From positions 1 through 29,742 of IMG/VR virus record IMGVR_UViG_3300032046_000151: 29,742 nucleotides of DNA. One strand, given 5' to 3'. The stretch comes from a virus. Each line of letters opens with the position of its first letter. The stretch's first letter is position 1. The position numbers and the translations under genes were made by a program. The notes beneath the pieces were generated by a model, which was not told the DNA's origin, made no database searches, and was given only the letters and a program-made list of their open reading frames with translations. Shown in pieces: positions 2,532-28,628 of the stretch.

Positions 2532-4514
2532 ATGCGAGAGACAGTTCATCCAGAAAACATAAATTCTGTAAATGCAGTTAAGATTACAACTGAGATAAGC
2601 GACTTTATAGCAGCCACCGCAAAAGATATTGAAGCAGAAAAAAGCAACCGTAGTCCCTGGGAGAATAAAATAGATGCCTTGATAGATTTGCGTTATGGCT
2701 ACAGGCAGAAAAAGACTCACCCTTGGCCTGATGCAGCCAATTATTCAATACCCCTCATAGACGCACATATAAATAAAGCCAAGCCTTCTTATGTTAATCT
2801 TGCGTTAGGAATATCTCCAATCTGTACCTTTGAGCCATTTGGCGCGGAAGATATTGAAGCCGCTAAGAAACGGGAGATTCTATTTGATTGGAGGATGCGG
2901 ACAAAGGTTAAATTTGCTCAACCTTATGCCATAGGTGTTGATAAGGGATTAGAGCAAGGCTCGGTAGTATTCAAGGTTGTCTGGAATTATACAACCCGCA
3001 ATTATCAAGATGAACTTGATTTAGCAGATTTGGATGAAAAGACATTGGGGGTTTTGCAAGACCCGAGAACAACGGATAATATTCTCGCTACCATAATCCA
3101 GGAAGAATTGGCGGTTGATGTAGACTTTGAAGAGAATATCGAAGAAATCAGGAAGGCAGTAATTAAATTCCGAGAAGGCGAGACAAAATTCAAATTCAAT
3201 TTTATCGAGATTGAAAATAACGAGCCAGAATTAACTGCTTGCAGCGTGAGAGAGGACATTGTTGTTCCTATCGATACTACTGATATTCAGTTTGCCCGCT
3301 TCATTGACCAGCCATTTTGGAGGACTACTACGCAACTGAAGAAAGCGATGCGCGATGAGAAATATCAAGAATATCCCGATGAGAATATAAATGCTTGGGG
3401 AAGTAAGGAAACCAAAAAAACATCTTCTTCGGGCAGGCAGGATGAAATAATCTTACTTCACGAAACCTGCGTCTGGTATGACATAAATAATGACGATATT
3501 AAAGAACGCTGTATTGCTACTTGGCCTGATAACGCTCCTTCGAGTGTATTGAGATTTATTGAAATTCCTTATGACCACGGATTATTTCCTTATGTCCAGG
3601 TGAGGCGTGAATTAAATGACGCAGGTTTTTATACCTCAAGGGGCATCCCTGCTCTTGATGAGGATTATCAAAAGGGCATATCGCAGGCAGTAAATCAAGC
3701 AGAGAATAATGGTACACTTGCCAATCCCGTAGTAGTGATGCGGCGTAATACGGTAACTAATCTTAAAAATAGGAGATATATCCCTGGCGAGACAGTTGAG
3801 ACTAATACCAGCCCAGATGATTATCAGATAAGATGGATGCAGAATATTTCTCAACCTGTATTATTGCAGTTTGCGCAATATTTAAAAAGTTGGGCGGATC
3901 AAAGAATTGGTAATATTAGTTCAGGATTAAGTGAGATAAACAATCTTCCTGGCGCAGGGGCAGGGGGCAAGAGGACAAAGGCAGAAATTGACTTGATTTC
4001 TTCATTACAAGGCGAAGTTCAATCCCTTGATTTGATAGTCTGGCAATTACAGATGGCCGATGTTTATTATCAGATTGACGCTTTATATAATCAATATGGC
4101 GATGAGGAAGAAGAAGTTATTATCACGGGCCAGCCTCCGCAGAAAATCAGTCGTAGAGAAACACAGGGTAAATGGAATATTATCCCCAATGGCAGGCTTG
4201 ATAATACTAATCCGGTCTTAAAGGCAAATAAGGCATTTAACCTGATGAAGATATTTATCGGAGACCCCGACATTAATCAGTATGAGCTTAAAAAATTATT
4301 CCTTACTGATTATGACCACAGAATTGCCAATAAGATTTTATATAAGCAGGAAGATAAACAACAGATGCAATTGCAACAGCAACAGATGATGGAAGCGATG
4401 AAGAAAAAAGCAGTTCAGGAAGGCGTAGATTTGAAACAAATGGAGATATTGCTTGAGGTCTATCGGGAGACCTTGTTAGCACCGATTCAAGGCAAACGTT
4501 ACGCAGCAGATTGA
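2532..4514 (+). CDS. Portal protein, P22-like
   Basis: This 660-aa protein should form the dodecameric ring at the capsid vertex through which DNA enters and leaves, and it is the docking site for terminase and adaptor. The N-terminal region has RYGYRQKKTHPWPDAAN and IPLIDAHINKAKPSYVN, typical of long P22-type portals. The C-terminus is glutamine-rich and helical (residues about 600-650), as expected for a coiled-coil barrel. It starts at ATG 2532 with an AGAGGA ribosome site five bases upstream, ten bases after terL ends. Its position between terL and scaffold supports the call. I infer the P22-type assignment from sequence character and length, without an alignment. Confidence 0.85.
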   Translation: MRETVHPENINSVNAVKITTEISDFIAATAKDIEAEKSNRSPWENKIDALIDLRYGYRQKKTHPWPDAANYSIPLIDAHINKAKPSYVNLALGISPICTFEPFGAEDIEAAKKREILFDWRMRTKVKFAQPYAIGVDKGLEQGSVVFKVVWNYTTRNYQDELDLADLDEKTLGVLQDPRTTDNILATIIQEELAVDVDFEENIEEIRKAVIKFREGETKFKFNFIEIENNEPELTACSVREDIVVPIDTTDIQFARFIDQPFWRTTTQLKKAMRDEKYQEYPDENINAWGSKETKKTSSSGRQDEIILLHETCVWYDINNDDIKERCIATWPDNAPSSVLRFIEIPYDHGLFPYVQVRRELNDAGFYTSRGIPALDEDYQKGISQAVNQAENNGTLANPVVVMRRNTVTNLKNRRYIPGETVETNTSPDDYQIRWMQNISQPVLLQFAQYLKSWADQRIGNISSGLSEINNLPGAGAGGKRTKAEIDLISSLQGEVQSLDLIVWQLQMADVYYQIDALYNQYGDEEEEVIITGQPPQKISRRETQGKWNIIPNGRLDNTNPVLKANKAFNLMKIFIGDPDINQYELKKLFLTDYDHRIANKILYKQEDKQQMQLQQQQMMEAMKKKAVQEGVDLKQMEILLEVYRETLLAPIQGKRYAAD

Positions 4515-6005: not shown

Positions 6006-6938
6006 ATGGGAGTTCTTTACGGAACGACTTACAAAACAATAGGTAACCGTGAAGGGTTGACTGATGTAATAGCTGATCTTTTTATGGATGAGACACCTTT
6101 GTTTTCAATGAGCGAAAAGATTAATGCTATATCAACCAAGCACGAATGGCAGGAAGATACACTCGCATCGGCAAGCCGGGCAGGTATAGTTGAAGGAGCT
6201 GATTTAACTTACGCACAAACCGCGGCAAGGACAAGGCTCTACAATTATACCCAGATCAGGCTTCGCAACTGGGCTGTATCTTTTACCCAGATGGCAGTAA
6301 CAACTGCCGGTATCAAGGATGATGTTGCCAGAGAGTTAATGAAGGCAATGAAAGCAATTGCTACCGACTACGAAACACAATTGCTTACAACTGGAGATAG
6401 AACAGTTGGAACAACCGCAATTGCAAGAGAATCAAGAGGTTTGTTAAAGGCGATTGTCAGTAACACTGGTTATGGTTCAGGCGGAGCTTCCGGAGATGCA
6501 GCAACAAGCCAGCTTACTGAAGATGTAATTAATGCTCGTTTGCAGGAAATTTGGGATGCAGGCGGAAATCCAAGAGCCTTAATTTGCGGTGGGTATCAGA
6601 AGAGAGTAATCTCCAAGAAATTCTCTGCAAAGACAGGGTTCACTTTCAATATTGAAGCATCAACACGCCAGGCCATTGCTAATATTAATAAATATGAAGG
6701 TTCGTTTGGAACTATTGATATTATTCCAGACAAGTTTATGGCTCAAACAAAACGCCTTGCGATTATCACTCCTGAGATGATTAAGATAGCTGTTTTAAGG
6801 GATATTAAACAATACAAGGGCGCACCAACAGCTTCTACAATCAAGGGATGGGTTGAAGGCGAGATGTGTTTGCAGTGGGGTAATGAGAAAGCGCACGCTG
6901 AGCAATATAGCTTACAGAACAGTGGAGCGATTGTGTGA
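6006..6938 (+). CDS. Major capsid protein, SU10/DUF5309-like
   Basis: This 310-aa protein should form the capsid lattice. It has features of the SU10 major capsid family (DUF5309): LYNYTQIRLRNWAVSFTQMA at about residues 78-97, followed by an AGIKDDVARELMKAM helix, then the ALICGGYQKRVISKK region near 195. The start is ATG 6006 with GGGAGG upstream. Its position after the scaffold and the strong terminator straight after it fit an abundant structural protein. The fold should be HK97-like, from family knowledge. Confidence 0.88.
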   Translation: MGVLYGTTYKTIGNREGLTDVIADLFMDETPLFSMSEKINAISTKHEWQEDTLASASRAGIVEGADLTYAQTAARTRLYNYTQIRLRNWAVSFTQMAVTTAGIKDDVARELMKAMKAIATDYETQLLTTGDRTVGTTAIARESRGLLKAIVSNTGYGSGGASGDAATSQLTEDVINARLQEIWDAGGNPRALICGGYQKRVISKKFSAKTGFTFNIEASTRQAIANINKYEGSFGTIDIIPDKFMAQTKRLAIITPEMIKIAVLRDIKQYKGAPTASTIKGWVEGEMCLQWGNEKAHAEQYSLQNSGAIV

Positions 6939-6998: not shown

Positions 6999-7142
6999 AT
7001 GAAACTTTCGGGTAATAGGTTACAAATGAGAGATGGCTCAATAAGGCATTTTAAATCGGCAATTGCAAGAGATAAATTTGAGCGTGCCGCTAATTTTTTT
7101 AGAACACATCCGTTAAAAGCAAGGAAAGCGTTTGGAAAATGA
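6999..7142 (+). CDS. 47-aa basic hypothetical protein
   Basis: This short ORF starts at ATG 6999 with AGGGA a few bases upstream and ends in a TGA that overlaps the methyltransferase ATG (ATGA at 7139-7142). The product is strongly basic (MKLSGNRLQMRDGSIRHFKS...) and probably helical. The overlap suggests translational coupling, with this as the first gene of the cassette after the capsid terminator. I recognise no family. Confidence 0.65.
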   Translation: MKLSGNRLQMRDGSIRHFKSAIARDKFERAANFFRTHPLKARKAFGK

Positions 7143-9277: not shown

Positions 9278-9287
9278 GGAAAAAATA

Positions 9288-10454
9288 ATGAAATCACTCG
9301 TCGTGGGATTAGGTGAAGTCGGGCAGGCATTATTTAATATATTAAAATCTACCTATCCCGATATTCAATCTTATGATAAAAATCAAGCAAACGCCATTGC
9401 TCTGCCGATAGATATTATTCATATCTGTTTTCCATATACTGATGATTTTATAAAACAAGTGGACGATTATCTTAAAGCATATCCGTCCATTAAATATTTA
9501 GTTATTCATTCGAGCATAGCGGTAGGAACTACGGCAAAGATAGCCAAAGACGCAAAATGCAAAGTATGTTATTCCCCTATTCGTGGACACCACGAGAATA
9601 TGGAAAAAGAAATTCTGACTTATGTCAAATATATTGCCTTTGATAATGTTGTATTATCTGATGAAATTAGCCAATATTTTGAGAAAGCAGGGATAAAAAC
9701 CAAGATGATGTTTGGCACGGAATCTGCCGAATTGATGAAATTATTGGAACTCTATCGGTATGGTCTATATCTTGCAGGTGCGAAAGAACAGGAGAATATC
9801 TGTAAACATTTTGGTAAAGATTATGCGTTGGTAGTTACAGGGTTTGAGGAAACAAGCAATGAGGGATTGATTGAACTTGGTAAATCTCCACAATGCCAAC
9901 CGATACTTTGGCCATTCAAGGATTATGTAGGGGGCCATTGCACGGTTGAGGATATGGAGATATTACTCAAACAGATAGAAATGCCTTTATTAAAAGAGGC
10001 TTATAAAATAGACAGGGGAACGGTAATCTGGGGAAACTGTAATATCTACCCGGGGGCCAAAATTGGCAAGGGCTGTTCAATAGGGCAATTCTGCGAGATA
10101 GATGATGGCGTGGTGATAGGGAATAATGTCAGAATAGGAGCCTTTTGTTTTATTCCTTCAGGCGTAACTATTGAGGATAATTGTTTCATTGCTCCAAGAA
10201 TCTCGTTTAGCAATGACAAAAAACCGCCTTCTGATAAACAATGCTGGGGTAAGATCCTTATTAAAAAAGGCGCAATGATAGGTATGGGTTCAATTATCTT
10301 GCCTTGCGTTACAATCGGTGAAAATGCCGTAATAGGCGCAGGTTCGGTTGTAACGAAGGATATCCCGGATAATGAAGTATGGTATGGACAAGCGGCGTAT
10401 AAACATAATACAAAAGGGGAAGTTTATGCAGATAGTAGAGATCATCAATCATAA
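9288..10454 (+). CDS. Sugar dehydrogenase-like / hexapeptide acetyltransferase fusion
   Basis: This 388-aa protein has two parts. Residues 1-235 resemble the UDP-glucose/UDP-ManNAc 6-dehydrogenase family: an NAD-binding GLGEVGQAL at 7-15, VIHSSIAVGTT near 82, and VGGHC ending at Cys218, which matches the family's catalytic GGHC cysteine. The usual C-terminal nucleotide-binding domain is missing. Residues 240-380 are a left-handed beta helix of hexapeptide repeats (IYPGAKIGKGCSIGQF, then GVVIGNNVRIGAF) ending AVIGAGSVVTKDIP, as in WbpD-like N-acetyltransferases. WbpA- and WbpD-type steps act in one pathway for acetamido-uronic sugars, so the fusion is logical. The substrate is inferred. The shortened dehydrogenase half could also be non-catalytic. 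Confidence 0.85.
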   Translation: MKSLVVGLGEVGQALFNILKSTYPDIQSYDKNQANAIALPIDIIHICFPYTDDFIKQVDDYLKAYPSIKYLVIHSSIAVGTTAKIAKDAKCKVCYSPIRGHHENMEKEILTYVKYIAFDNVVLSDEISQYFEKAGIKTKMMFGTESAELMKLLELYRYGLYLAGAKEQENICKHFGKDYALVVTGFEETSNEGLIELGKSPQCQPILWPFKDYVGGHCTVEDMEILLKQIEMPLLKEAYKIDRGTVIWGNCNIYPGAKIGKGCSIGQFCEIDDGVVIGNNVRIGAFCFIPSGVTIEDNCFIAPRISFSNDKKPPSDKQCWGKILIKKGAMIGMGSIILPCVTIGENAVIGAGSVVTKDIPDNEVWYGQAAYKHNTKGEVYADSRDHQS

Positions 10455-10515
10455 CGGCTTGATTTATCAGCCGATACCTTTTCTTGAATATCTGAATAAA
10501 TGGGATAAAACATGA
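10426..10515 (+). CDS. 29-aa ORF overlapping both neighbours
   Basis: ATG 10426 has AGGGGAAG a few bases upstream and reads MQIVEIINHNGLIYQPIPF... to TGA 10513-10515, which overlaps the next ATG (ATGA at 10512). It overlaps the fusion gene by 29 bp. The ribosome site and coupling arrangement suggest it is translated. The function is unknown. Confidence 0.5.
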   Translation: MQIVEIINHNGLIYQPIPFLEYLNKWDKT

Positions 10516-11051
10516 GGATTGCAATTCACCAGGCTAATTTTTGTCCGTGGTTTCCTTTTTACCAAAAAATACACCAATCCGATATATTCGTAATTTTAAA
10601 AGAAGTGCAATTTCCTAAGAATAGTTGGACTAACCGTTGCCAGGTAAATGGCAAATGGTGGACTAATCCTGTTGAACACGGCCTCGTGCCTATCAAGGAA
10701 AAGAAATATACTACAGGGCAATCATTATTGGAACTTAACCTAATATTGATTTACGCTATGGCTAAATTGCTGAATATAGATACGAATAAGATAAAATTTG
10801 ATTTTCCGACGGAGAAGAAAGGTACGGAACGGATAGTCGAAATATGCAAGTATTATGAGGCAGATGAATATTTGGCTAATCCAGAAGCAACATTGAATTA
10901 TCTTGACGAGAAGATACTTAATGATAATGGGATAACCCTTATTCCTTTCGTAAGCCATCATAAGAAACATATTTTCGAATATTTTAATTCTATCGGGATT
11001 GAGAAAACAAGAGAATTATTGAATGAGCGGCAGACAAGCCAAACGACTTAG
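10512..11051 (+). CDS. WbqC-family protein
   Basis: This 179-aa protein has the WbqC-like signature: IAIHQANFCPWFPFYQKI at residues 3-20, SDIFVILKEVQFPKNSWTNR after it, and a region rich in conserved Trp and Asn (KWWTNPVEHG). WbqC-family genes lie in polysaccharide and O-antigen clusters and are thought to take part in sugar modification, though the reaction is poorly defined. Here it sits directly after the dehydrogenase/acetyltransferase fusion, matching that context. The protein is somewhat short, with a C-terminal HHKKHIFEYFNSIG segment. It starts at ATG 10512, coupled to the 29-aa ORF. Confidence 0.85.
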   Translation: MRIAIHQANFCPWFPFYQKIHQSDIFVILKEVQFPKNSWTNRCQVNGKWWTNPVEHGLVPIKEKKYTTGQSLLELNLILIYAMAKLLNIDTNKIKFDFPTEKKGTERIVEICKYYEADEYLANPEATLNYLDEKILNDNGITLIPFVSHHKKHIFEYFNSIGIEKTRELLNERQTSQTT

Positions 11052-11172
11052 ACAGGTAGCGAGAGAAGCAGGCAAGAAAGAGGCATTGAGATATATGACT
11101 TTGGTGTTAGCGGGTAAGAATTTTTGGGGTAGGTTACAAGTGGCTTGGAGGATATTGAAGTGCAGGATTTAA
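11023..11172 (+). CDS. 49-aa highly basic hypothetical protein
   Basis: ATG 11023 lies inside the end of the WbqC gene, and the frame runs to TAA 11170-11172. The peptide begins MSGRQAKRLRQVAREAGKK and ends NFWGRLQVAWRILKCRI. The basic helical head and the Trp-rich tail of the form FWxRLxxAWRIL look like a small conserved phage protein, possibly membrane- or nucleic-acid-associated. It overlaps both neighbours by short stretches. Confidence 0.6.
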   Translation: MSGRQAKRLRQVAREAGKKEALRYMTLVLAGKNFWGRLQVAWRILKCRI

Positions 11173-12161
11173 AACAATTCTTCTCTTTTATGAATGATAT
11201 AAATTTTTCTTATATAGTTTTAAGGAATTGGGAAGGTTTACCTTATTCTGTTGAATTAGGCGAACACTCTGACCTTGATTTGCTTGTTTATGATATGGAA
11301 CATTGGAAAGAGATTTATCCTGAAGCCAAACAGGTTTATCCTGACCCAAGAGTGCAGTTTAAAGTGCCGGTAAACGGAAGTTTCATTCAAGTTGATGTTC
11401 GGCATATCGGGGATGGTTATTATCCGCAACACTTCCAGAAACTTCTACTTAAAACTAAGGTCTGGAATACAGAAGGGTTTTTTATTCCTGCCTTTCCGCT
11501 TTTTCGTATTGCCCTTGCTTATCATTGTGTTCACCATAAGAATGAGAATAAATATTCTCGCTGGTTAGGCGAAATAAAGATTGAAGAACTCCTTTCCGCA
11601 TTAAAAGAATCAGACATTGGATGGGTTGAGCCGAAAGACCCAAGTGTAGGCAGGTTTAATTCTTATCTTAAAGGCGCGACTGCCACAATAGAAAAACAAG
11701 ATGACAGGGTTATAAAAAAACAAACTAATTATCTGGATTACGATTTGATTAAAAACGAAGTCCGCATTTTATCTAAATGCGACTCAAGGCATTTTCCTAA
11801 AATTTATAAAGCGGATGAGGACTCAATAGAACTTGAGGATTGCGGGAATGACTTAACTATTAAAAACCTGCCTAATGATTGGAAACAACAATTAGTGGAA
11901 ATCGTTAAGGATTTAAAAAAATATAAGATAGAACACAATGATATAAGATTAGAAAATTTAACAGTTAAAAATAATATAATTTATTTGATAGATTTTGGAT
12001 GGAGTTCTTTGAAGGGTGAAGATAAAAGTTATTTCCCTCAATGTTTAGGTTACCCCAATAGATTATCTTCGGGCTTATTGGATGACAATTATTCTATGGG
12101 TTGTGTAATTAAACAAATTGAATATAAATTAAACGAAAAAGCGGATGTTATATCAGTGTAA
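11160..12161 (+). CDS. Nucleotidyltransferase-like / protein kinase-like fusion
   Basis: The GTG at 11160 was chosen because GGAGG at 11147-11151 sits eight bases upstream; a TTG at 11145 has nothing similar. The product is 333 aa. The N-terminal half has YIVLRNWEGLP and EHSDLDLLV (residues 35-43), the acidic metal-binding pattern of nucleotidyltransferase folds (G/H-S-D-x-D). The C-terminal half has a kinase-like core: HNDIRLENLTVKNN near 260 (catalytic Asp and Asn) and IYLIDFGWSS about ten residues later (DFG metal loop). The ATP-binding half of the kinase fold is small. The fusion may phosphorylate a lipid, sugar or protein; the substrate is unknown. Confidence 0.72.
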   Translation: MQDLKQFFSFMNDINFSYIVLRNWEGLPYSVELGEHSDLDLLVYDMEHWKEIYPEAKQVYPDPRVQFKVPVNGSFIQVDVRHIGDGYYPQHFQKLLLKTKVWNTEGFFIPAFPLFRIALAYHCVHHKNENKYSRWLGEIKIEELLSALKESDIGWVEPKDPSVGRFNSYLKGATATIEKQDDRVIKKQTNYLDYDLIKNEVRILSKCDSRHFPKIYKADEDSIELEDCGNDLTIKNLPNDWKQQLVEIVKDLKKYKIEHNDIRLENLTVKNNIIYLIDFGWSSLKGEDKSYFPQCLGYPNRLSSGLLDDNYSMGCVIKQIEYKLNEKADVISV

Positions 12162-12250
12162 TATTTGTAAAACTATATATCACGCAAAACTATCGGAGAA
12201 TAGAAAATTTGGAAATATTATTTTAGTGTAAGAATAATCAGGGAATTAGA

Positions 12251-12382
12251 ATGGGCAAAGGAAGCAAGCCAAGACCATTAGATAAGCAGAAGTTTGATAA
12301 GAACTTCGATAGAATATTCAAGGGGGGAGAACAATGCCTTGTGGAAGTAGAAAAAAAAGGCGTAAAAGAAGATAAGGAATAA
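12251..12382 (+). CDS. 43-aa MGKGSKPRP-type small phage protein
   Basis: ATG 12251 follows an AGGGA site and reads MGKGSKPRPLDKQKFDKNFD..., ending at TAA 12380-12382. The start resembles small lysine-rich proteins often found in phage genomes. The function is unknown. The 90 bp before it (12162-12250) are AT-rich and hold no other gene that I can see. Confidence 0.55.
   Translation: MGKGSKPRPLDKQKFDKNFDRIFKGGEQCLVEVEKKGVKEDKE
12334..12375 (+). CDS. 13-aa arginine/lysine mini-ORF with strong RBS
   Basis: AGGGGGGAGA at 12321-12330 is one of the stronger ribosome sites in the cassette. It stands four bases before ATG 12334, in a different frame from the 43-aa ORF that contains it. The peptide is MPCGSRKKRRKRR. 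It may be a true micro-protein or a coupling device for the following glycosyltransferase. Confidence 0.35.
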   Translation: MPCGSRKKRRKRR

Positions 12383-12383
12383 T

Positions 12384-12389
12384 AAGGAG
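12384..12389 (+). promoter_or_regulatory. Shine-Dalgarno supporting an AUC start
   Basis: AAGGAG at 12384-12389 is followed six bases later by ATC at 12396, in frame with the GT4 gene. No ATG, GTG or TTG in that frame lies nearby until TTG 12459. Confidence 0.55.
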
Positions 12390-12395
12390 AATACT

Positions 12396-13523
12396 ATCAA
12401 AATTTTAGGCTTTGAGAGAAGCACGACTGCGTGCAATCACTACAGAATAGTCCAGCCATTGTATAAACTTCAGGAACACAAGATGGCTGATATATTGACT
12501 ATTCATCAGGGTAATGCTTCGGATTTGGGGTTTGTAACTAATAAGATTATAGAGGCGGATATTATTCTTATCCCAAGGCCGCAGGATGATAGATGGTTTG
12601 ATTTTATCAAAATAGCCCAGAAGCACGGGAAGATCATAGTCGCTGATTTTGATGACCATCCATTTACAATATCGCCTTTTAATCCTGCTTATCGCCACTA
12701 TGGGACATCAGAATTTGATTATAAATGGCCGGATGGCACAGTTACGCCAATCTGGAAAGACGGAGAAAAAGAGTTTCATATTGAAGAAAATATTACCCGT
12801 CAGGATTATTTTAAAGCAGCATTCAAAAGAGTGGATTTAATAAGCACAACAACTCCGATTTTGCAGGATATATTCCTTAAATTAAACAAGAACAGCGTAG
12901 TATTGCCCAATTTAATAGACTTTAATCTTTTCCCTGAAATTGAATGCGTGAAGAAAGAAATTAGGATTGGTTGGCAAGGCGGAGTATCACATTATGAGGA
13001 TTTATATATGGTTGCACCGGCAATCAAAAAAATCATAGCAAAATACGATAATGTTAAATTCATTTTTTTTGGGGATGTACGTTTCTATGGATTATTCAAG
13101 GATATACCGAAAGACAAGATAGAATGGCATCCTTGGGTGCAGAATGTTGCTTATCCCTATAAATTAGTAATATTAAATCTGGATATCGGTTTATGTCCGT
13201 TGATTGATAATGAGTTCAACAGGAATAAATCGGCGATTAAATATTTTGAGTATTCGACAATCAAGATACCGACAATCGCTTCTAACATACCACCCTATTC
13301 GCCAATAATGACTAATGAAGAAAATGGTTTGCTTGTTTCTGACGATGGATGGTTTGAAGTGATGGAACGATTGATTAAAGATAAAACTTTGCGAGACAGT
13401 TTGGCAAAAAGGGCATTTGATAATATTTATTGGAATCACAACGCGGACAAATTTGCTCATCTTTGGATGGATGCTTTTGAAAAATTACTCAAGAAAGATG
13501 TAACAGAACTTGTGGGGGTGTAA
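12396..13523 (+). CDS. Family 4 (GT-B) glycosyltransferase, AUC start
   Basis: From ATC 12396 the protein is 375 aa; from TTG 12459 it would be 354 aa. I prefer the longer form because its first residues, (M)KILGFERSTTACNHYRI, are the natural first strand and loop of a GT-B enzyme, and AAGGAG stands correctly before the ATC. Later features are IVADFDDHPF near 85, RVDLISTTTPIL near 148, IGWQGGVSHYEDL near 190 opening the donor domain, and a C-terminal YSTIKIPTIASNIPPYS then NEENGLLVSD, the GT4 nucleotide-sugar pocket. The enzyme should add a sugar to a glycan or protein in the cytoplasm. It closes the cassette and is followed immediately by the adaptor gene. Confidence 0.83.
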   Translation: MKILGFERSTTACNHYRIVQPLYKLQEHKMADILTIHQGNASDLGFVTNKIIEADIILIPRPQDDRWFDFIKIAQKHGKIIVADFDDHPFTISPFNPAYRHYGTSEFDYKWPDGTVTPIWKDGEKEFHIEENITRQDYFKAAFKRVDLISTTTPILQDIFLKLNKNSVVLPNLIDFNLFPEIECVKKEIRIGWQGGVSHYEDLYMVAPAIKKIIAKYDNVKFIFFGDVRFYGLFKDIPKDKIEWHPWVQNVAYPYKLVILNLDIGLCPLIDNEFNRNKSAIKYFEYSTIKIPTIASNIPPYSPIMTNEENGLLVSDDGWFEVMERLIKDKTLRDSLAKRAFDNIYWNHNADKFAHLWMDAFEKLLKKDVTELVGV

Positions 13524-13524
13524 T

Positions 13525-14202
13525 GTGGATTTCGCAGAACAGCAAACACTCTTATCTGAATTACTCGGGGACCCTAATTCTTCTTCGGATGATATGTGGC
13601 CTCTTGCTAGGCGCAAGGCAGCACTTAACAGGGGCGACATTAGTTTTTGTAAGGATAGCCATTGCACAAGGGCATATGCCACAGGGGCAGTGGCGAGTTA
13701 CGAAATAGCATTGCCAAGCGGATGGCTGGAAACTTTCTGCCTTATCATCAACGATGTGGTAATAGACAATGCAAGGGAAATAGACCTGCACGAATGGGGG
13801 AGATATCATTCGGCTGGCTCGGATGACCCATTTTATTATATCTGGGAATACAGTGGGACAAGAAAGATGAAATTTTTGGCAGGTAGTGGGGTCAATGGAC
13901 AGACTTATGAATTATATTATTTTAGGAAACAGACTACCGCTTTAGATGCCGATGCCGATGAATCAATAATCCCTGATGAATACAGAGAAGCGCCTGTTTA
14001 TCACGCAGCAAATTGGTTACTAAAACAGGCGGGATTAACCGAGTTGGCAGCGCAAAGCCGAGCTGAATATGATAGGCTCGTGGTAGAAGCTACATTAAAA
14101 ACAGAAAAGGAATATAAAAAGGAAAATAGGCCTTTTCCTGACTTGGGCGATAATGTTGAGGGTGGAGGTTATGCCGAGGGAGATGGGGGACATTTTGATT
14201 AA
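13525..14202 (+). CDS. Putative head-tail adaptor
   Basis: This 225-aa protein starts at GTG 13525 with GGGGGTG just upstream and two bases after the glycosyltransferase stop. The N-terminal half has a mostly helical ARRKAALNRGDISFCKDS segment. A beta-rich middle follows (WEYSGTRKMKFLAGSG, then YELYYFRK), and then IIPDEYREAPVYHAANWLLKQ. That pattern is typical of proteins that dock under the portal in short-tailed phages (P22 gp4/T7 gp11 position). The C-terminus is acidic and glycine-rich. The function is inferred from order and sequence character, not a firm family match. Confidence 0.65.
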   Translation: MDFAEQQTLLSELLGDPNSSSDDMWPLARRKAALNRGDISFCKDSHCTRAYATGAVASYEIALPSGWLETFCLIINDVVIDNAREIDLHEWGRYHSAGSDDPFYYIWEYSGTRKMKFLAGSGVNGQTYELYYFRKQTTALDADADESIIPDEYREAPVYHAANWLLKQAGLTELAAQSRAEYDRLVVEATLKTEKEYKKENRPFPDLGDNVEGGGYAEGDGGHFD

Positions 14203-14204
14203 AG

Positions 14205-16427
14205 ATGACTAAATTTAAAACTAATCGTGATGTATTAGACCGATCCAAACCGATTGAACTTGTGTTAGAATTATTGTCTTTTTCAGGTGGCGAGAATACC
14301 ATCGGAGAGGATGTGGCATTGAAAAACAATGAAGCCCGTATAATAGAAAACTGGGATGCTTTGTCTATTGGGGGAATGATACGCTCTAAAGGATTTAACG
14401 AAGTGGCGAAAGTTACCAATATAGATAGTTATGATGTGGCACTTATTCATTTTGACGGAGTGGATACGGCAACTGCCGCAGTTGAAACAGTCGCAGGAAA
14501 AACAATAACTTTTGGCGGGACAGCGCAGTTAGACACGGCACAAAAGAAATTCGGCTTATCCTCGTTATTACTTGACGGAAACAGCGATTATATCACTCTG
14601 CCATCCCACGCGGATTGGCAATTCGGGACTGGGCCTTTTACTATTGATGGGCAGTTTAGGATACACACAGACCAGGATTGCGTATTAGTCGGGCAATATG
14701 TAGATGCGAATAATTACTGGTATTTAAAATATTCCGCTACTGATAGTAAACTATATTTTAAGGTAATGATAGCCACAGTTACTAAGGCAGATTATTCGGT
14801 TACTTGGAATCCAGCACTTGATACTTGGTATCATCTGGAATTAGCGAGGAATACTACCACAGTTTATTTATTCATTGATGACGTTTCCCAGACATTGACC
14901 GAGACTACGGCCATAGCCGCAAATAGTATGCCGACATTTGATACAACTTTGAATATAGGCGCACAAAACGGAGCAGATTTCTTTGATGGTTGGATTGATG
15001 AGGTGAGGATTTGTAAGGGTATAGCCCGCCATACCGCCAATTTCACCGCTCCTACGCTTGCCTATGTTACCAATGGGAAGTTTGATTTATTGATACAGCA
15101 TAAAGAATCTACGACTACGCAGTTATTCGGAATCATAAAAGGGGATTTGGTTTATAAGGACACTTCTGCGATAAAACTCGCCGATGCGTCAGGTTTTACT
15201 TCTGGGCAATTATGCCACGCAGTATCGGCTGGGGATAAATTATGGATTACTAATTCACTTGATAATCTTAAATATAAGACTTTAGCCGGAGTATTGACCA
15301 TTCCTGCAAGCCAACCAGGAGCGGCAAGGGAACGCATACATTATCATCAATTCAGATTCATAGCCGAAGGTGGGGGTAAGACTGTTTATGGCTCAAGAGC
15401 GGCTTCGGGTAATTGGACGGCCGCAGATGCTTGGTCTTTGGCTAATGATGCTTGGAATATTGATATGCCCGATTATACTTATGGAGGAATCTCCGGATTT
15501 CCTTCGGGGGCATATTTTACTATCTTTACTTATTTCAGGGCCTATTTGCTTTATAATTTTCCCGATATAGCTTATGAACCGATTTCGGGTTCTCATGGTT
15601 GTTGCGCGCCGTTCTCTATTGTTAAGGGAGATGAAGGAATATATTTCCTCTCCAATTACCCGACTTTAGGGATATTCCTTTGGGATGGTGCTAACTGGAT
15701 AAATCTGACAGAAAATCACGATTTCGTCGAGGATATAGATCTATCAAAAAGGATTTTCGGATTCTATCGGAACGGAAAGTACTTTATAAATTACTGCGAA
15801 TCCGGATCTAACGCGAGTTATCCTAACCGACAGAAGATATATGACGCTTCTCTGGGGCGCTGGATGACTCGGCCTATCAATACAGTGCTTTCCGAAAATT
15901 GGGGTTATCCGGCATTACTCAAATATGATAATAATGAACTTTACAATGCTTCTTCCCTGAACGGCAGGATATACGAACTTGAAACCGAGGATAACTCGGA
16001 TGAAGGAGAAGATACTGTCGCTAATTACCTCACTAAAGATTTTAACTCTTCCGATTTTTCTGTGGCCAGCGGTGGACAGTTTCCGATAAGCAATGTAAGG
16101 TTGAAACTGACGAAGATGATTTTGACGTATTATGGAAATACCGGTAACATCACAATACGTTGGTCGGCAGATAGGGGAATAAGGGCAGGCGAACAGACTA
16201 TAACCATAACAAAATCCTATACGGGAGCCAAGATCAACAGTGACTTTACCGTTAATACTTCATATATTGTCTCTCCGGGCGAATTGCCTGATAGGACGGA
16301 AATGAGGTCTTTCAAAAATTCAGCAGTAGGAAGATTTTTCAATTTGCAGATACTGAACAATGCGATAGGCGAAAGACCCAAAATTAAAAGTCTGAAAATT
16401 CATGCAATCGCATTAGAAGAACTTTAA
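14205..16427 (+). CDS. Large tail propeller-like protein with LamG domain
   Basis: This 740-aa virion protein begins with ALKNNEARIIENWDALSIGG near residues 38-57, a start typical of beta-propeller tail nozzle or tail-stabilising proteins in short-tailed phages. A LamG/concanavalin-like domain is inserted at about 75-285: YDVALIHFDGVD, SLLLDGNSDYITLP, then FDGWIDEVRICKGIARHTA. The rest (about 290-740) is beta-rich with recurring aromatic strands, consistent with a propeller. The LamG insert probably binds carbohydrate on the host. The nearest purine run lies about 14 bases before ATG 14205, longer than usual. Confidence 0.72.
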   Translation: MTKFKTNRDVLDRSKPIELVLELLSFSGGENTIGEDVALKNNEARIIENWDALSIGGMIRSKGFNEVAKVTNIDSYDVALIHFDGVDTATAAVETVAGKTITFGGTAQLDTAQKKFGLSSLLLDGNSDYITLPSHADWQFGTGPFTIDGQFRIHTDQDCVLVGQYVDANNYWYLKYSATDSKLYFKVMIATVTKADYSVTWNPALDTWYHLELARNTTTVYLFIDDVSQTLTETTAIAANSMPTFDTTLNIGAQNGADFFDGWIDEVRICKGIARHTANFTAPTLAYVTNGKFDLLIQHKESTTTQLFGIIKGDLVYKDTSAIKLADASGFTSGQLCHAVSAGDKLWITNSLDNLKYKTLAGVLTIPASQPGAARERIHYHQFRFIAEGGGKTVYGSRAASGNWTAADAWSLANDAWNIDMPDYTYGGISGFPSGAYFTIFTYFRAYLLYNFPDIAYEPISGSHGCCAPFSIVKGDEGIYFLSNYPTLGIFLWDGANWINLTENHDFVEDIDLSKRIFGFYRNGKYFINYCESGSNASYPNRQKIYDASLGRWMTRPINTVLSENWGYPALLKYDNNELYNASSLNGRIYELETEDNSDEGEDTVANYLTKDFNSSDFSVASGGQFPISNVRLKLTKMILTYYGNTGNITIRWSADRGIRAGEQTITITKSYTGAKINSDFTVNTSYIVSPGELPDRTEMRSFKNSAVGRFFNLQILNNAIGERPKIKSLKIHAIALEEL

Positions 16428-16440
16428 GGAGGAATAAGAA

Positions 16441-17238
16441 ATGGCTTTTTCGAGTGATCTTGTAAGGACAAAAAACTGGGGAACGGAAATTTTAATCGAT
16501 ACCGATTTAGAGGGGCAATTAGACTTGATTATCGACTGGATAATGGCCGCACTAAATAGCTCTACCGGACACGGACACGAAGGCACTTCGAATAAAGGGC
16601 CTAAGATAAACGTAGGAACTGGTCTTGCCGTCACGAATCAAGCGCAGGGAGACGTTCTTTATGCCTCTTCCGCTTCTGCTTTTGCAAGATTAGGTGCAGG
16701 GACTAAAGGAAAATGTCTTACTACGGGTGGAGTAGGAGCTAATCCTACATTTGAAGGAATGACTACGCAAGGGGATGTTGAATACCACGATGGAACGAAC
16801 AGGGCAAGATTAGAAGCTGGCAATGCCACAGATTTATTAGGAAGCGGTGGAATTGCGGCCAATCCTTCTTGGAAAACTATTGCCCAAGTTTTTACAAATG
16901 TTGTTGTTCCAAAAACTTATGATAGTGGATGGTTTGCGTGTGCTGTTCAAAGCAATTATTCAAAAACTCATAATTTGGGAACTACAAAAGTAATTTATAA
17001 ACTATATTTCGCCACAGATGATATTGGAACTGCTATGGTAGAAGCAGGATTGACTGATATAGATATAGGTGGTGGGAATGTTCATTCTAATGCTGGAGGA
17101 TGTGTCGCGGCTATAACTACTACGACATTGGAAGTCCATTCGGGAGGTTCGGCGGTTGCGTATTATTTAGATGCGGATGGTGATAGAACTGAACCTGCTA
17201 CCGGATTCTATCGAGTGGTTGCAATAGCCTTAGCATAA
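16441..17238 (+). CDS. Tail fibre-like protein with GxGANP repeats
   Basis: This 265-aa protein starts at ATG 16441 with AAGGAGGA upstream. The N-terminus has a HGHEGTSNKGPKI segment, a common junction in tail fibres. Two degenerate repeats follow at about 70-145 (QGDVLYAS...ARLGAGT...GVGANPTF and QGDVEYHD...ARLEAGN...GIAANPSW). The C-terminal 110 residues are a separate beta-rich tip. Such repeats form trimeric fibre shafts. It probably contributes to host binding. Confidence 0.72.
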   Translation: MAFSSDLVRTKNWGTEILIDTDLEGQLDLIIDWIMAALNSSTGHGHEGTSNKGPKINVGTGLAVTNQAQGDVLYASSASAFARLGAGTKGKCLTTGGVGANPTFEGMTTQGDVEYHDGTNRARLEAGNATDLLGSGGIAANPSWKTIAQVFTNVVVPKTYDSGWFACAVQSNYSKTHNLGTTKVIYKLYFATDDIGTAMVEAGLTDIDIGGGNVHSNAGGCVAAITTTTLEVHSGGSAVAYYLDADGDRTEPATGFYRVVAIALA

Positions 17239-22575: not shown

Positions 22576-23532
22576 ATGAAAAACATATTCAAGGAAGAAG
22601 AAACCGAGCAACCAGCAAATAACCAAACCGTCATCAAATTCACTCCTATTCTGGATTCTCTTGAGAAACTCCAAAAGATTGCCGAAAGCCCGAAAGAAGT
22701 AAGCAATTTTGATGAAATAAAATTGCATTTACGCACCGAACTCAAGATTCTTTACGATAACCTCAAGAATATGTTCAGTGACCTGAAGATACCCGATTCC
22801 TTTAAGATAGAAGGGATTCCCAAAATTCAGGTAGTGCAACTTCAAAATCTTTTGGAATCAATCAATGACTTGCGGATTGCTTTGGCGCAGATTGACTTTA
22901 AGCCTGAGATTAAAGTTTCTCACGAGGTAATCCACGAGCATCCCGATATAAATATACCACCCATAAAAATACCTGAAATAAAAATTCCCAAGATAGAAGT
23001 TCCAAAGGCAGAAGTAACGATCAACAATGATATGGACTTGGATGATTTATTGGATGCCTTGAAACCTTTGAGATTGCTTTCTGATAAGGCCGGTAAACCT
23101 CTTTCTGTAAGATTATCTGATGGCGAAAGATTTATCAAAGCATTAACCGATATAGTCGGCAAACAGGAAAAGTGGGTTACGGCTTTCTCGGCAAGTAAAG
23201 GAATGGATGAAGGAGAATACGAAAATAAGGCAGAAAAAGTTTTTATCCCTAATAAAATAATTGATGGCAGGAAAACAGTAACAACTGCGGGAATAGCAGA
23301 ACAATTAACAGAAACGAGTTCAAAATGTAAATTTGTTATTCTGGTGGGCGAAACTGACAATTTTAATCCTGTTACTGTTGGCAATAGCACAGTAGTCGGC
23401 GCGGAAGCAACTAGGCGCGGTATTCCCATATATGCGGCACAACAAGTCAAAATAGAAATAAATGACCCAAGCAAATTATATTTGGATTGTATTACAGATG
23501 GAGAAGGGATTACCTATGCGGTATTTGCGTAA
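22576..23532 (+). CDS. Tail-tip-like protein with IxIPx repeat rod
   Basis: This 318-aa protein starts at ATG 22576 with AGAAGA upstream. Residues 20-115 are helical. Residues 126-147 form a short rod of repeated proline strands (INIPPIKIPEIKIPKIEVPK), which may be a trimeric beta segment. The last 90 residues (VTTAGIAEQLTETSSKCK, later GIPIYAAQQVKIEINDP and DGEGITYAVF) match a beta-sandwich common in phage virion proteins. It is probably a tail-tip or decoration protein. It overlaps the next gene by 17 bp. Confidence 0.65.
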   Translation: MKNIFKEEETEQPANNQTVIKFTPILDSLEKLQKIAESPKEVSNFDEIKLHLRTELKILYDNLKNMFSDLKIPDSFKIEGIPKIQVVQLQNLLESINDLRIALAQIDFKPEIKVSHEVIHEHPDINIPPIKIPEIKIPKIEVPKAEVTINNDMDLDDLLDALKPLRLLSDKAGKPLSVRLSDGERFIKALTDIVGKQEKWVTAFSASKGMDEGEYENKAEKVFIPNKIIDGRKTVTTAGIAEQLTETSSKCKFVILVGETDNFNPVTVGNSTVVGAEATRRGIPIYAAQQVKIEINDPSKLYLDCITDGEGITYAVFA

Positions 23533-26500
23533 GAAATTTTTTGTAGTATTGATTTTATTATTTATTTGTAATATGACTTTTGCTCAAAATTTTCCTCCTT
23601 TAATAGTAGAGGAAGAAGATGGCTCCCCAACTGGAGTTACTACTAAAATAAAAGTTAGTAATTCTACTCTTTCTCGTTTAGGAACAGTAGCGACCATAAC
23701 TATTCCAAATATTCCTATCTTGGCGAAAGACGTCAATACTGATACTTCCAACTTTAATGGTTCTTTATCTTCTGCTGATACTGATGTACAAAAAGCATTA
23801 GACACTTTAGATAATATGTCTGTAACTGACCTCCGTTACCTCAAACTCGATACCTCCAATGACCCATTAACAGGCGACCTTACAATAAATGCTAAACTCG
23901 GCATCCTTGAAACTGGTTTAACTCCTACCAAATATACCTACTTTCAGGGTGGAGACCAAACAATAGATTTGACTTATACTTTGCCTACTGCTTATCCTGC
24001 CGAAGATTATATGCCCTTACTTTCCACTACCGCTGGCGTATGGTCTTGGGGTGGTAATCTTAATTTTGGCGCTTATTATGCACAATTCTCCGAAATTTCC
24101 ACTCCTTCTACACCCGCCGCTAACAATATCCGACTCTATACCAAAGATGATGGTGCAGGAACTTCAAGGATTTATATCTTAGATGATGCTGGAATTGAAA
24201 CCGACCTTACGGGAGGTGGCGGGGGAGCGACGACCTTGTCTGCTTTAAATGATGTTGATGATGCTTTGGCTTATACCTCTGGACACGTCTTAAGAGCAGA
24301 CGGTTCTCAATTTACCAATGCCCAACTTGCCCACTCGGACTTATCAGGGATTGGCACTAACACCCACTCGGTAATAGACACCCATCTTGCATCAACCTCT
24401 AATCCCCACTCTGTAACCGCAGCACAAGTTTCGGCAGTTGCCTTAATAGGTGATGAGACAATCGCAGGAATAAAGACTTTTTCTTCTTTTCCGATACTGC
24501 CGAGTTCAGCACCTACCGCAGACTATCAAGCTGTCCACAAGACTTATGTTGATGCTTTTTCTCAAGGATTAGAGGTTAAATTAGCTTGCAGGGTGGCAAC
24601 GACAACAGCAGGAACTTTGGCGACTGATTTTGAAAATGGGGATACGATTGACGGGATAGTTTTAGCGACTGGAGACAGAATTTTAATCAAAGACCAAGCC
24701 GATGCTACCACCAACGGAATTTATACTGTCAACGCTTCAGGGGCACCGACAAGGGCGACTGATTATAACGTCTCATCAAAAGTTCAGGAAGGCACTTATA
24801 CCTTTATCACCGAAGGAACGGCTAATGGCGGTTATCAGTTTGTTCAAATAACCAAAGACCCAGTCCTCAATACTAATGATTTGGTTTTTACTTATTTGAA
24901 TAAAACAACTACTTATACTGCTTCTTTGGGAGTAGAATTGGTCGGGGCTGATTTCAGGGCTGATTTATTGGCAACTGGGGCTTTAGGTCTTACAGGCAAT
25001 GAATTAAAAGTTAATGTTGATGCTTCTTCAATCGAAATATCCACCAATGCTCTACAAGTTAAGGCACTCGGAATTACCAACGCAATGCTGGCTGGGTCTA
25101 TTACTGACGCCAAGTTAAGTCAGATAACTACCGCAAGTAAGGTTTCTGGGACAGCTTTTACTGGATTAGCAAGCATCCCTGTTGGGGCTGGTATTATTCC
25201 TATCGCTAATTTGGCTTCAGGAACTCCTGATGGGACTAAATATATCCGAGACGACGGCACTTTAGTTACTCCAAGTGGCGGTGGTTCATCTTCTTCTACC
25301 ATCTATATGCCTTTACACTGGATTGAGATGTCTTCAGTAGCCATAAATGGAGGTATCTGGACAAATCTACCAGCGGCGGAAACCGTCTTTATGGGAAGCA
25401 CCACTAAAGGCATTAGAAAGTTTGACGCTACTTTAGCTACTCAATATAGAATCGTCGTTTGGCAAACTGTGGCAGGATATGCTGGTTCAGACATAAGATT
25501 ACAATACTCTCTTGATGGTTCAACTAATTGGACTAATGCCGATGCCGCAGGAACAGAACTTGATGTTGGCACAGGGACAGGACTGAAAGCAACTGCCTTA
25601 TTAGATTTAGTGGCAGGAGCAAAAGGATATTATTGGTTCAGATTACTCGGAAAACAGGGCAACGGAACAATCGACCCTGCTTGGTCGGAGGTCAAGGTTG
25701 AGTTCAAAGTCCCAGGCGGAGACGCTTTGACTTTTACTTTACCCTTAGATTTAACCAGCACAATAGTTTCCCTAAAAGGATTAACAGGTTTCGGCACGGC
25801 AGGACAAGTTATCAAAACCAATGCCACTGTAGATGGTTTGGAATGGGGAGATGCTGGCGGAGGCGTTTCTGCTCACTCGCAATTAACCCAGTTAGATTAT
25901 GCTTCAGCAGGACATACTGGCTTTCAACCAGCGGGGAACTATCAACCATTAGACGCCACCCTTACTTCTATCGCTCTACTCGGCACTGCTGCTGATAAGA
26001 TGCTTTATACCACAGGAATAGATACTTGGGCAGAAGCAAGTATAACTGCCGCAGGTAGGGCTTTAATAGATGATGCCAACGCTGCCGCTCAAATAGCTAC
26101 TTTAGGTTTAGACGCCGACTTGGCTACCTTTAGTTTACCCGCCTCAACCACCATTACCGCCGCCGCCGCCACAATTCTTGACGATGCCACAGTCGGAGCA
26201 ATCAGAACTACTTTAGGCGTGGGAACAGGAGATAGTCCGACTTTTACAGATTTGACTCTAACTGATGTATCTCCATTAGTTAATTACCACGAAACTTCCA
26301 CTGGTGATTATAGAACAGGTGTTGATGCAAATATCTTTTTAATTGACTATGATGAGGGAGCAGACGGGGGAGGAGATTTCTCGCCATATACAAGGATGCA
26401 GATTGTAGGAGGAGCAGACAGTATGACGATTAGGCCAGCCGTGGACGGAGAACTTGCTATAGGGGACTCTACTCAACCCATAGGAAATATTTGTATGGAC

Positions 26501-27976
26501 TCCGGCAAAGCTATAGGAACTGATGATGACACGGATTTAATAACATTGACCGCTGATACTGTTACAGTGGCAGGAACGGTTGCCGCTACTACCCTCACAG
26601 AAGGTGGTAATGCGGTATATAGCTCTATTGAAGTCCCTGGTGGGGAACTTGGTGGAACTTGGGCTTCACCTACAATAGACGATAGTGTTACTGTTACAGG
26701 TTGGAGTTTAGGCGCATCTTCGGCAGGGACATCGCTTACATCTCCTATTTTTGCTTCTAATAATGCCGACCCTGCTGATGCAGGAATAGTAAGATTAGGC
26801 AACGCAGAGAATATAGCTTGGGAAGCAAGTCCAACTGGGACAGATATGACTTTGGGTGTAGATGCAACAGAAGTGCTTGTATATAGCGGCGATATGCAAT
26901 TATCTGGTGGGGATTTAATAGGAACTACAGATGGTAGTTTGAAATTGCACGCAGATACAGATATTATATTTGAATTGGACGACGATAGCGACGGAACAGA
27001 AACATTTCAAGTATTAGACGGAGCTTCTACGGAAGTATTCAGCATTGCTGAAAGTGGCAATGTGCAAATGGACGGCGACTTATCCGTTGACGGTGCGGAT
27101 ATAGGGTTAGCCGCAGACACAGACCTTATAGGACTTGCGGCGAATACAGTTACTATACGAGGCACGCTTGTAGCCAATACAGCACTTAACCCTGATGCCA
27201 ATGACGGAGCGGTTCTTGGTGCGGCAGGAACGGCTTGGTCTGATTTATTCTTGGCGGAAGGCGGAGTGATAAATTGGGATAGCAGTGATGCCACATTGAC
27301 CCAAGTAGCAAATATGGTGACTTTAGCAGGTGCAGATTTAACTGTCCCGAACATAACAGTCTCAACCGCCATAACAATCGGAGCGACGGCTATAACTTCC
27401 ACTGCCGCAGAGTTAAATATTTTAGACGGGGTTACATCTACGGCAGCAGAATTAAACCTCGTTGACGGCTCGGTGGCGGGAACTATAGTAAATAGTAAAG
27501 CAGTTATTTATTCTGCAGCAGGGGATATCGCCGCTACCTCAATTACTTTGGGGGAAGGTGGAATTTTATTAGACGCTGCTATTTCTGCTGATGGAAAATA
27601 TTCAGGTATTACTGAAGCAGGGACAGCTGGGACGACTTTAGCCTTTGGGGATTTGGTTTTTCTTGCTCAAATAGATAGCCGGTGGGAATTAGCCGACGCT
27701 AATGCGGCGGGTTCTGCCAGAAAATTGGGCATCTGCATTCTGGCGGCTGCGGCAGACGGTAGCGCTACAACTATTCTTTTGTGGGGTAAAGTTAATGCAA
27801 CTACTGCCTTCCCTACTTTGACAGCAGGGACACCATATTATATTAGTGAAACGGCTGGCGATATTACTGGAACTCAACCTACCACCACAGATGCTTATAT
27901 AAGAATTGTGGGTTTTGGCAATTCTGGGGATGAATTATTTTTCTGTCCAAGTCCAGATTACATAACTCACACTTAA
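23516..27976 (+). CDS. Giant fibre-like protein with Sec signal peptide
   Basis: This 1486-aa protein starts at ATG 23516, seven bases after GAGAAGGGA and inside the end of the previous gene. Residues 1-24 form a classical Sec signal: MRYLRKK, a hydrophobic core FFVVLILLFIC, and a likely cut after TFA. The rest is fibre-like and low in cysteine. DETIAGIKTFSSFPILPSSA and TYVDAFSQGLEVK are typical tail-fibre linkers. Repeats containing ADTVTVAGTV, AANTVTIRGTL and two TSTAAELN units form the shaft, and a distinct C-terminal domain starts near 1380. A signal peptide on a fibre is unusual, because virion proteins normally assemble in the cytoplasm. It may be a secreted or cell-surface adhesin, or a fibre matured in the periplasm. 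Confidence 0.8.
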   Translation: MRYLRKKFFVVLILLFICNMTFAQNFPPLIVEEEDGSPTGVTTKIKVSNSTLSRLGTVATITIPNIPILAKDVNTDTSNFNGSLSSADTDVQKALDTLDNMSVTDLRYLKLDTSNDPLTGDLTINAKLGILETGLTPTKYTYFQGGDQTIDLTYTLPTAYPAEDYMPLLSTTAGVWSWGGNLNFGAYYAQFSEISTPSTPAANNIRLYTKDDGAGTSRIYILDDAGIETDLTGGGGGATTLSALNDVDDALAYTSGHVLRADGSQFTNAQLAHSDLSGIGTNTHSVIDTHLASTSNPHSVTAAQVSAVALIGDETIAGIKTFSSFPILPSSAPTADYQAVHKTYVDAFSQGLEVKLACRVATTTAGTLATDFENGDTIDGIVLATGDRILIKDQADATTNGIYTVNASGAPTRATDYNVSSKVQEGTYTFITEGTANGGYQFVQITKDPVLNTNDLVFTYLNKTTTYTASLGVELVGADFRADLLATGALGLTGNELKVNVDASSIEISTNALQVKALGITNAMLAGSITDAKLSQITTASKVSGTAFTGLASIPVGAGIIPIANLASGTPDGTKYIRDDGTLVTPSGGGSSSSTIYMPLHWIEMSSVAINGGIWTNLPAAETVFMGSTTKGIRKFDATLATQYRIVVWQTVAGYAGSDIRLQYSLDGSTNWTNADAAGTELDVGTGTGLKATALLDLVAGAKGYYWFRLLGKQGNGTIDPAWSEVKVEFKVPGGDALTFTLPLDLTSTIVSLKGLTGFGTAGQVIKTNATVDGLEWGDAGGGVSAHSQLTQLDYASAGHTGFQPAGNYQPLDATLTSIALLGTAADKMLYTTGIDTWAEASITAAGRALIDDANAAAQIATLGLDADLATFSLPASTTITAAAATILDDATVGAIRTTLGVGTGDSPTFTDLTLTDVSPLVNYHETSTGDYRTGVDANIFLIDYDEGADGGGDFSPYTRMQIVGGADSMTIRPAVDGELAIGDSTQPIGNICMDSGKAIGTDDDTDLITLTADTVTVAGTVAATTLTEGGNAVYSSIEVPGGELGGTWASPTIDDSVTVTGWSLGASSAGTSLTSPIFASNNADPADAGIVRLGNAENIAWEASPTGTDMTLGVDATEVLVYSGDMQLSGGDLIGTTDGSLKLHADTDIIFELDDDSDGTETFQVLDGASTEVFSIAESGNVQMDGDLSVDGADIGLAADTDLIGLAANTVTIRGTLVANTALNPDANDGAVLGAAGTAWSDLFLAEGGVINWDSSDATLTQVANMVTLAGADLTVPNITVSTAITIGATAITSTAAELNILDGVTSTAAELNLVDGSVAGTIVNSKAVIYSAAGDIAATSITLGEGGILLDAAISADGKYSGITEAGTAGTTLAFGDLVFLAQIDSRWELADANAAGSARKLGICILAAAADGSATTILLWGKVNATTAFPTLTAGTPYYISETAGDITGTQPTTTDAYIRIVGFGNSGDELFFCPSPDYITHT

Positions 27977-27977
27977 A

Positions 27978-28628
27978 ATGAGAAGACCATTTATTTTACT
28001 TTTAATTCTTTTTATTACATCAACAAATTGCTTTGCGGCAGTTACCTCGTCTTTATTTCCGAACGCCGATGCTGCACCTAATGAATGGGATTTGACTGGA
28101 GGAGACGGAACAAATCATTACACGCCTGTAGATGAGACACCTGCGAGCGATGCGGATTATTTAGCGACAACCACTACGCTTTATGACGAAGAATTTGACT
28201 ACCCGACAGAAACGCTTACAGGACTTATTGCGATAACTTCTGTTACTGTGTATGTCAGAGTATATGGGGTACATACTGCACCTGGTGGTAGTCCAGCAGA
28301 CCCAGAGATAGGTATCAACATCTATATGGGGAGTGCTTGGCAGACTCAACAAACACGCACTGTTACAGGTAGTATTTGGATAGATGAAACTTTTACTTTT
28401 GATGGAACCTGGACACAGGCGGATTTAGATGCTATCCAGACAAGATGTAGACGAACTTCTGGTAATGCTCCTAATGGTGGCGGAGTATTAAGATTTTCAC
28501 AGATTTACGTGATAGCGACTTATACAGTATCGGGTATCAAAACTATTGATGGATTAGCGAAGGCATCTGTTAAAACTTGGAATGGGCTTGCTATAGCTTC
28601 AGTTAAGACAATCAATGGACTTCAATAA
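27978..28628 (+). CDS. Second secreted fibre-like protein with C-terminal repeats
   Basis: This 216-aa protein starts at ATG 27978, one base after the previous stop. Residues 1-20 are a Sec signal (MRRPFILLLILFIT, likely cut after CFA). The middle is a beta-sandwich (LIAITSVTVYVRVYGVH, then GGGVLRFSQIYVIATY) resembling a virion surface domain. The C-terminus has three 11-residue repeats: IKTIDGLAKAS, VKTWNGLAIAS and VKTINGLQ. It shares export and context with the giant protein before it, and the two may form one secreted complex. The function is unknown. Confidence 0.72.
   Translation: MRRPFILLLILFITSTNCFAAVTSSLFPNADAAPNEWDLTGGDGTNHYTPVDETPASDADYLATTTTLYDEEFDYPTETLTGLIAITSVTVYVRVYGVHTAPGGSPADPEIGINIYMGSAWQTQQTRTVTGSIWIDETFTFDGTWTQADLDAIQTRCRRTSGNAPNGGGVLRFSQIYVIATYTVSGIKTIDGLAKASVKTWNGLAIASVKTINGLQ
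28536..28625 (+). repeat. 33-bp coding repeats, 11-aa period
   Basis: Three tandem units encode (I/V)KT(I/W)(D/N)GLAxAS, the last truncated as VKTINGLQ. They form the extreme C-terminus of the secreted protein. The DNA copies are diverged, so they are protein-level repeats rather than a recent duplication. Confidence 0.75.

Follow-up and report, generated by a model that had tools for sequence, protein, structure and literature searches.

The fibres of tailed phages are held to be produced in the cytoplasm and attached to the virion there. The locus described here, in which two consecutive fibre-like proteins of a podovirus begin with predicted Sec signal peptides, raises the question of where such proteins act. 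Other phages retain such proteins in the cell for virion construction; secretion signals on fibres suggest that these act, or are attached to the virion, beyond the cytoplasm. A clade with repeated Sec signals on its fibres would have either secreted free receptor-binding fibres or completion of the virion outside the cytoplasm, and the former, if true, would represent a little-noticed arm of phage-phage competition. A literature search, judged mostly by titles and the beginnings of abstracts, found no paper that treats Sec signals of phage fibres as a system of their own.

The window, i.e., the whole stretch of 29,742 nucleotides that was analysed, is IMG/VR virus record IMGVR_UViG_3300032046_000151. 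It encodes a terminase and the portal, capsid and adaptor proteins of an SU10-like podovirus (Table 1), and the phage is a member of an uncultured clade of such viruses, whose representatives were gathered with capsid, tail-protein and A2 profiles.

Table 1. Features of the window that bear on the signal-bearing fibre locus.
Feature	Positions	Strand	Basis or remark
SU10-type portal	2532..4514	+	PF23899
SU10-type major capsid protein, used for clade definition	6006..6938	+	capsid profile used to collect relatives
SU10-type adaptor	13510..14202	+	PF24175
Conserved tail protein (A1 family), 740 aa, with Laminin_G_3 insert	14205..16427	+	
Anchor-type fibre without signal, 265 aa; first 60 residues conserved, body variable	16441..17238	+	
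A2 family gene, 318 aa, immediately upstream of the 1486-aa fibre	22576..23532	+	
Fibre-like protein, 1486 aa, Sec signal (predicted)	23516..27976	+	17-base overlap with end of upstream gene
Predicted Sec signal peptide, residues 1-23, cut after TFA	23516..23584	+	rule-based predictor and inspection
Fibre residues 324-506, domain common to phage head-decoration/fibre proteins (phrog_2647, phrog_30390) and Pelagibacter phage HTVC106P gp54	24485..25033	+	
C-terminal domain of fibre, 152 aa; 52% identity to signal-less 196-aa protein of phage contig L002	27518..27973	+	
Partner protein, 216 aa, Sec signal (predicted), beta-rich body	27978..28628	+	
Predicted Sec signal peptide, residues 1-20, cut after CFA	27978..28037	+	predictor and signal-less homologues
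C-terminal repeat KT-x-x-GLA-x-ASVKT-x-NGL of partner; also in phage contigs L002/L003 (79%), weaker in L052	28515..28625	+	

The two signal-bearing proteins

The gene of the 1486-aa protein runs from an ATG at 23516 to its stop at 27976. The mechanically delimited open reading frame begins at 23462; a ribosome-binding site, GGAGAAGG, lies 8 bases upstream of the ATG at 23516, and none precedes the further upstream ATG. The 216-aa partner starts with an ATG right behind that stop and ends at 28628; its start has no clear ribosome-binding site and relies on coupling. The N-terminus of the larger protein reads MRYLRKKFFVVLILLFICNMTFA/QN (the slash marks the predicted cut) and that of the partner MRRPFILLLILFITSTNCFA/AV. 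Each comprises a basic n-region, a hydrophobic core and an A-x-A-like cut site (TFA/QN and CFA/AV, both resembling signal peptidase I sites), and neither protein has a lipobox. Signals were called with a simple rule based on charge, hydrophobic core and cut site, written for this analysis, which is crude and post-dates sight of the window proteins. Among the 23 open reading frames of the window of at least 150 aa, it produced signal-peptide-like calls on the two fibres only, in agreement with the initial annotation, which had noted Sec signals on both.

That annotation had also assigned tail-fibre-type bodies to the proteins. For the 1486-aa protein this is borne out by matches of residues 298-526 to PHROGs structural families (best E 5.9e-29; head decoration phrog_2647, 3e-24) and by the identity of its C-terminal domain to a phage protein. 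An AlphaFold model of this domain was dropped (pLDDT 38), and PDB searches with the A1, A2 and window fibre sequences returned nothing useful. Pfam and PHROGs scans of the 216-aa protein gave no match, and proteins related to it were found in phage contigs. The AlphaFold model of its mature form (pLDDT 56; best Foldseek E 0.0027, query TM-scores ~0.2-0.35) was unusable beyond indicating a beta-rich body.

Recurrence of the signals among relatives

The terminal fibre gene, which closes the structural run, is signal-bearing in 8 of 11 phages of the clade (7 of 10 when the window is set aside): the window, G011, G018, G014, G020, G015, G028 and G023 have the signal, and G016, G021 and G031 lack it. 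In this count G017 was merged with G018, their fibre and A2 sequences being identical over the stretch read; G031 has a disrupted A2 frame and intervening glycosyltransferases, and its 539-aa open reading frame was taken as the fibre with some uncertainty, the count being 8/10 when this phage is left out; and G020, whose fragment contains no capsid gene, was grouped by its A2 gene. The following gene is likewise signal-bearing in four of the eight (the window, G011, G015 and G020, the last weakly). An A2 gene just precedes the signal-bearing fibre in five of the eight (the window, G014, G015, G018 and G020), and the fibre start overlaps its end in the window, G015 and G020. The capsid tree places signal-bearing phages in each of its two larger groups and groups G016 and G021, both signal-less, as sisters. 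Among the phages that share the terminal-fibre signal the fibre bodies are divergent, and the signal is thus a recurring element joined to an exchangeable body. Scanning with A7 for further G023-like fibres returned just the two records already known, and the final A10 scan, which yielded no new complete genomes, led to G012.

The cut sites are A-x-A-like in nearly all signal-bearing proteins (TFA, CFA, VFA, AFA, LHA). Only three signal-peptide-like calls were obtained among the other open reading frames of 12 records, a background from which the four second fibre genes were excluded and to which G030, a contig that stops short of a fibre, contributed; the resulting Fisher p of 2e-11 overstates independence because the phages are related. 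The rule also called 10 of 236 open reading frames in eight reference phages whose capsids are related, and none of these calls fell on an annotated fibre. That such signals are out of place on virion fibres, as the initial annotation had it, agrees with their absence from all 19 annotated fibre and tail proteins of these references (0/19), a set hand-picked from annotations in which two entries are HTVC106P hypothetical proteins. An artefact of start-codon choice was considered and ruled out by the good ribosome-binding sites before most first-gene starts; those of G028, whose start codon is TTG, and of G023 have weak sites only. The analysis thus confirmed that the predicted signals of the two window fibres look genuine and exceed chance. 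Neither cysteine content (0.69 per 100 residues in the exported fibres vs 0.54 in other fibres) separates the two kinds of fibre, nor was charge content decisive.

A lipobox pattern is matched by 1 of 12 signal-bearing proteins, the second one of G011 (L035:18243-18867, VTSC), which may be a surface lipoprotein rather than soluble. Directly after the major capsid gene of G030 lies a gene for a 132-aa protein with a clear predicted Sec signal and no Pfam match (L106:19576-19974).

Origin of the signals

Two proteins from phage contigs, L052:10449 (phmmer E 4.5e-6) and L004:6751 (E 2.3e-8), align with the mature 216-aa protein close to its start; both begin with a plain Met at most one residue from the predicted cut and have no signal. 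Since these homologues begin at the mature end of the window protein, the signal would have been added to a phage module. In the initial annotation, homologues starting downstream of the signal counted against it; for the 216-aa protein they exist, and they mark a gain rather than a false signal, because signals recur at the locus in several relatives. In contigs L002 and L003, a protein ending in the C-terminal domain of the window fibre is followed by a repeat-tailed protein, both without signals, and this pair stands before a 491-aa gene identified by reading as portal-like. A phage two-gene module therefore appears, from these alignments, to have gained signals on both of its genes in the window lineage, as if the two products worked in one compartment.

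Docking ends and the G012 fibre

A conserved N-terminal docking region was not found in the signal-bearing terminal fibres: over the first 60 mature residues of seven of them the median identity is 18%, as low as in the stretch behind. The anchor-type fibres of the same phages, in contrast, share 68% identity in their first 60 residues and 24% after, and the window phage retains such a fibre without a signal. This difference argues against docking of the signal-bearing fibres to a fixed virion site, and hence for free fibres.

The exception is the anchor-type fibre of G012 (L142:11833-12675, the same as L016:13947-14789), which reads MKKILALILAISLPVNAFA/AWPSDSVRTKNWG. Its signal stands exactly where the start Met would be, and cleavage at NAFA/AWPS would leave an end identical to that of the homologues minus Met, with the anchor invariants intact. 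The signal-bearing gene is the only anchor-type copy within that record fragment. Of 21 anchor-type homologues it is the only one with a signal; the other 20 start with a plain Met. This seamless fusion amounts to a natural experiment.

Possible functions of the exported fibres

We regard as the most likely reading, with a probability of roughly 0.4, that late-exported fibres bind host surfaces as free decoys or coats. The clade would have fused a cleavable Sec signal onto the first residue of fibre modules; the fusion itself is seen in the sequences, and export is likely. The position of the fibre genes, at the end of the structural run and following or overlapping structural genes, suggests that fibre and partner are probably made late. 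They would then pass through the host Sec machinery, with cleavage after TFA and CFA, and the mature fibres would fold in the periplasm or at the cell surface. Free fibres might bind host surface receptors or glycans and so block superinfection, and at lysis they might keep progeny off the spent envelope. We infer this decoy or coat role from two considerations taken together, i.e., that virions form in the cytoplasm and that the terminal fibres have no conserved virion-docking end, so that they would act apart from the virion. Searches for an outer-membrane exit route, a surface anchor and a receptor for the exported fibres found none.

The G012 fibre speaks against free fibres. A signal that precisely replaces the start Met of a fibre with a retained docking end is what would be expected if exported fibres were later mounted on virions, and it favours the second most likely reading, a possible but distinctly less probable one, according to which virion fibres wait in the periplasm and dock during or after lysis, assembly being split across the cytoplasmic membrane. 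The same locus holds signal-bearing or signal-less fibres in different relatives, and the signal-less fibres of G016 and G021 imply that it may serve one virion role throughout. Mounting is harder to reconcile with the lack of a conserved docking end in the other signal-bearing fibres and with the single signal among the anchor-type homologues, and docking at lysis would presumably suffer from dilution unless it were very fast. A two-compartment assembly, in which heads and tails are cytoplasmic and Sec-exported fibres coat the cell before docking onto virions that leave at lysis, has a similarly modest probability. The signals might instead serve lysogenic conversion, the exported fibres being adhesins that alter the surface of an infected cell or a lysogen to the benefit of cell or prophage. 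Genes for an integrase (PF00589, 1.5e-29) and an S24 repressor are present in G028, one of the phages whose fibre bears a signal, and the partner genes differ, one of them resembling a lectin domain (Laminin_G_3, E 0.0012, under the curated cut-off). The fibre genes follow or overlap structural genes, however, and are thus probably expressed late, together with those of the virion; we consider this role unlikely.

Still less likely, the N-termini could be hydrophobic segments that are neither exported nor cleaved and that anchor the protein in a membrane or have a use within the virion. The signals are rule-based predictions and the second gene of G020 has only a weak site, but canonical A-x-A-like sites in nearly all of the proteins, and junctions that coincide almost exactly with the starts of signal-less homologues, argue for cleavable signals. 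Capture of host surface fibre genes is very improbable. Bdellovibrio-type bacteria do have secreted fibres of such a kind, according to the accessible part of a report on them (PMC10769870), and the G014 fibre contains a repeat similar to them; the bodies and the partner nevertheless match phage proteins, and the signal-less homologues lie in phage contigs, which rules out capture as the main reading. Among the explanations offered by the initial annotation, secreted adhesins, decoys and maturation outside the cytoplasm are therefore the right options, as the signals look real, recur and are out of place on fibres, and only the proposed acquisition from a host falls away.

Relation to known systems

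One close parallel to free exported fibres is found in the mosaic adhesive trimer (MAT) fibres of Bdellovibrio, which include bd2133. In the portion of the study available (PMC10769870), they are described as surface-displayed, phage-like fibres with signal peptides. They have in common a beta-rich domain of ~130 aa placed directly behind the signal, and in 13 of 21 the C-terminus is an S74 chaperone/protease. Like them, as far as that description extends, the window proteins have a Sec signal (here predicted by rule) followed by a modular body resembling phage tail fibres. Unlike them, the signal-bearing fibres have no shared post-signal domain, judged by the 18% identity among the seven fibres themselves, and they are encoded by phage genes beside structural genes, whereas MAT fibres are, in the same partial account, products of bacterial genes displayed on the predator surface. 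A Pfam scan of the 12 signal-bearing proteins, fibres and partners together, gave no S74 hit. As to the trimeric beta-prism/repeat body of MAT fibres, the G014 fibre matched only two PDB entries at E <0.1, 8ond (bd2133, E 1.5e-4) and 8on4, both weakly and over a GNVGIGT-type repeat; the window, G015 and G023 fibres matched neither entry, and G018 matched unrelated entries only.

A second parallel concerns adsorption. The accessible text on T5 (PMC9586334) states that the free receptor-binding protein pb5 blocks T5 infection and that T5 encodes an exported blocker, the small lipoprotein Llp, next to the gene of its receptor-binding protein. The window proteins would resemble Llp, which blocks adsorption, in being phage-encoded exported products; they differ from Llp, as described there, in that a 1486-aa fibre and its partner are not small and have no lipobox. 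SU10 has the same capsid, portal and adaptor type and several fibre proteins; in the part of its structural description available, long and short tail fibres dock to the adaptor and nozzle, and that part makes no mention of a signal peptide (PMC9509320). The window gene at 16441 suits this docking style better than the signal-bearing fibres do. Exported endolysins with Sec signals likewise join a cleavable signal to a normally cytoplasmic kind of phage protein, but, going by the accessible excerpt (PMC6116005), they are lytic enzymes and not fibres. The target proteins of phage DGRs have no detectable signal peptides in the section of the report at hand (PMC6199706). By the features tested, the window proteins are neither ordinary SU10 virion fibres nor Llp-type lipoproteins, and MAT membership was not shown; they may work like MAT fibres and perhaps like Llp.

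Lifestyle, host and other genes of the clade

The integrase and S24 repressor genes of G028 adjoin (L104:2906-4687), in a record whose ends overlap as in a complete genome, and from this pair part of the clade is probably temperate. A host search with the capsid profile in genome contigs returned two loci, insufficient for host inference: one on a contig of the Parcubacteria bin viral-cat, the other on a Nitrososphaeraceae contig of 3 kb. In the phylum of the former, the profile matched 2 of 379 genomes, one being that bin.

The Laminin_G_3 insert of the A1 tail protein spans ~215 residues and is absent from that of the close relative G011 (526 aa). Between the capsid and adaptor genes of the window (7139-13523) lies a block of glycosyltransferase, methyltransferase, WbqC-like and hexapeptide-transferase genes that is retained in several relatives and may serve surface sugar modification.
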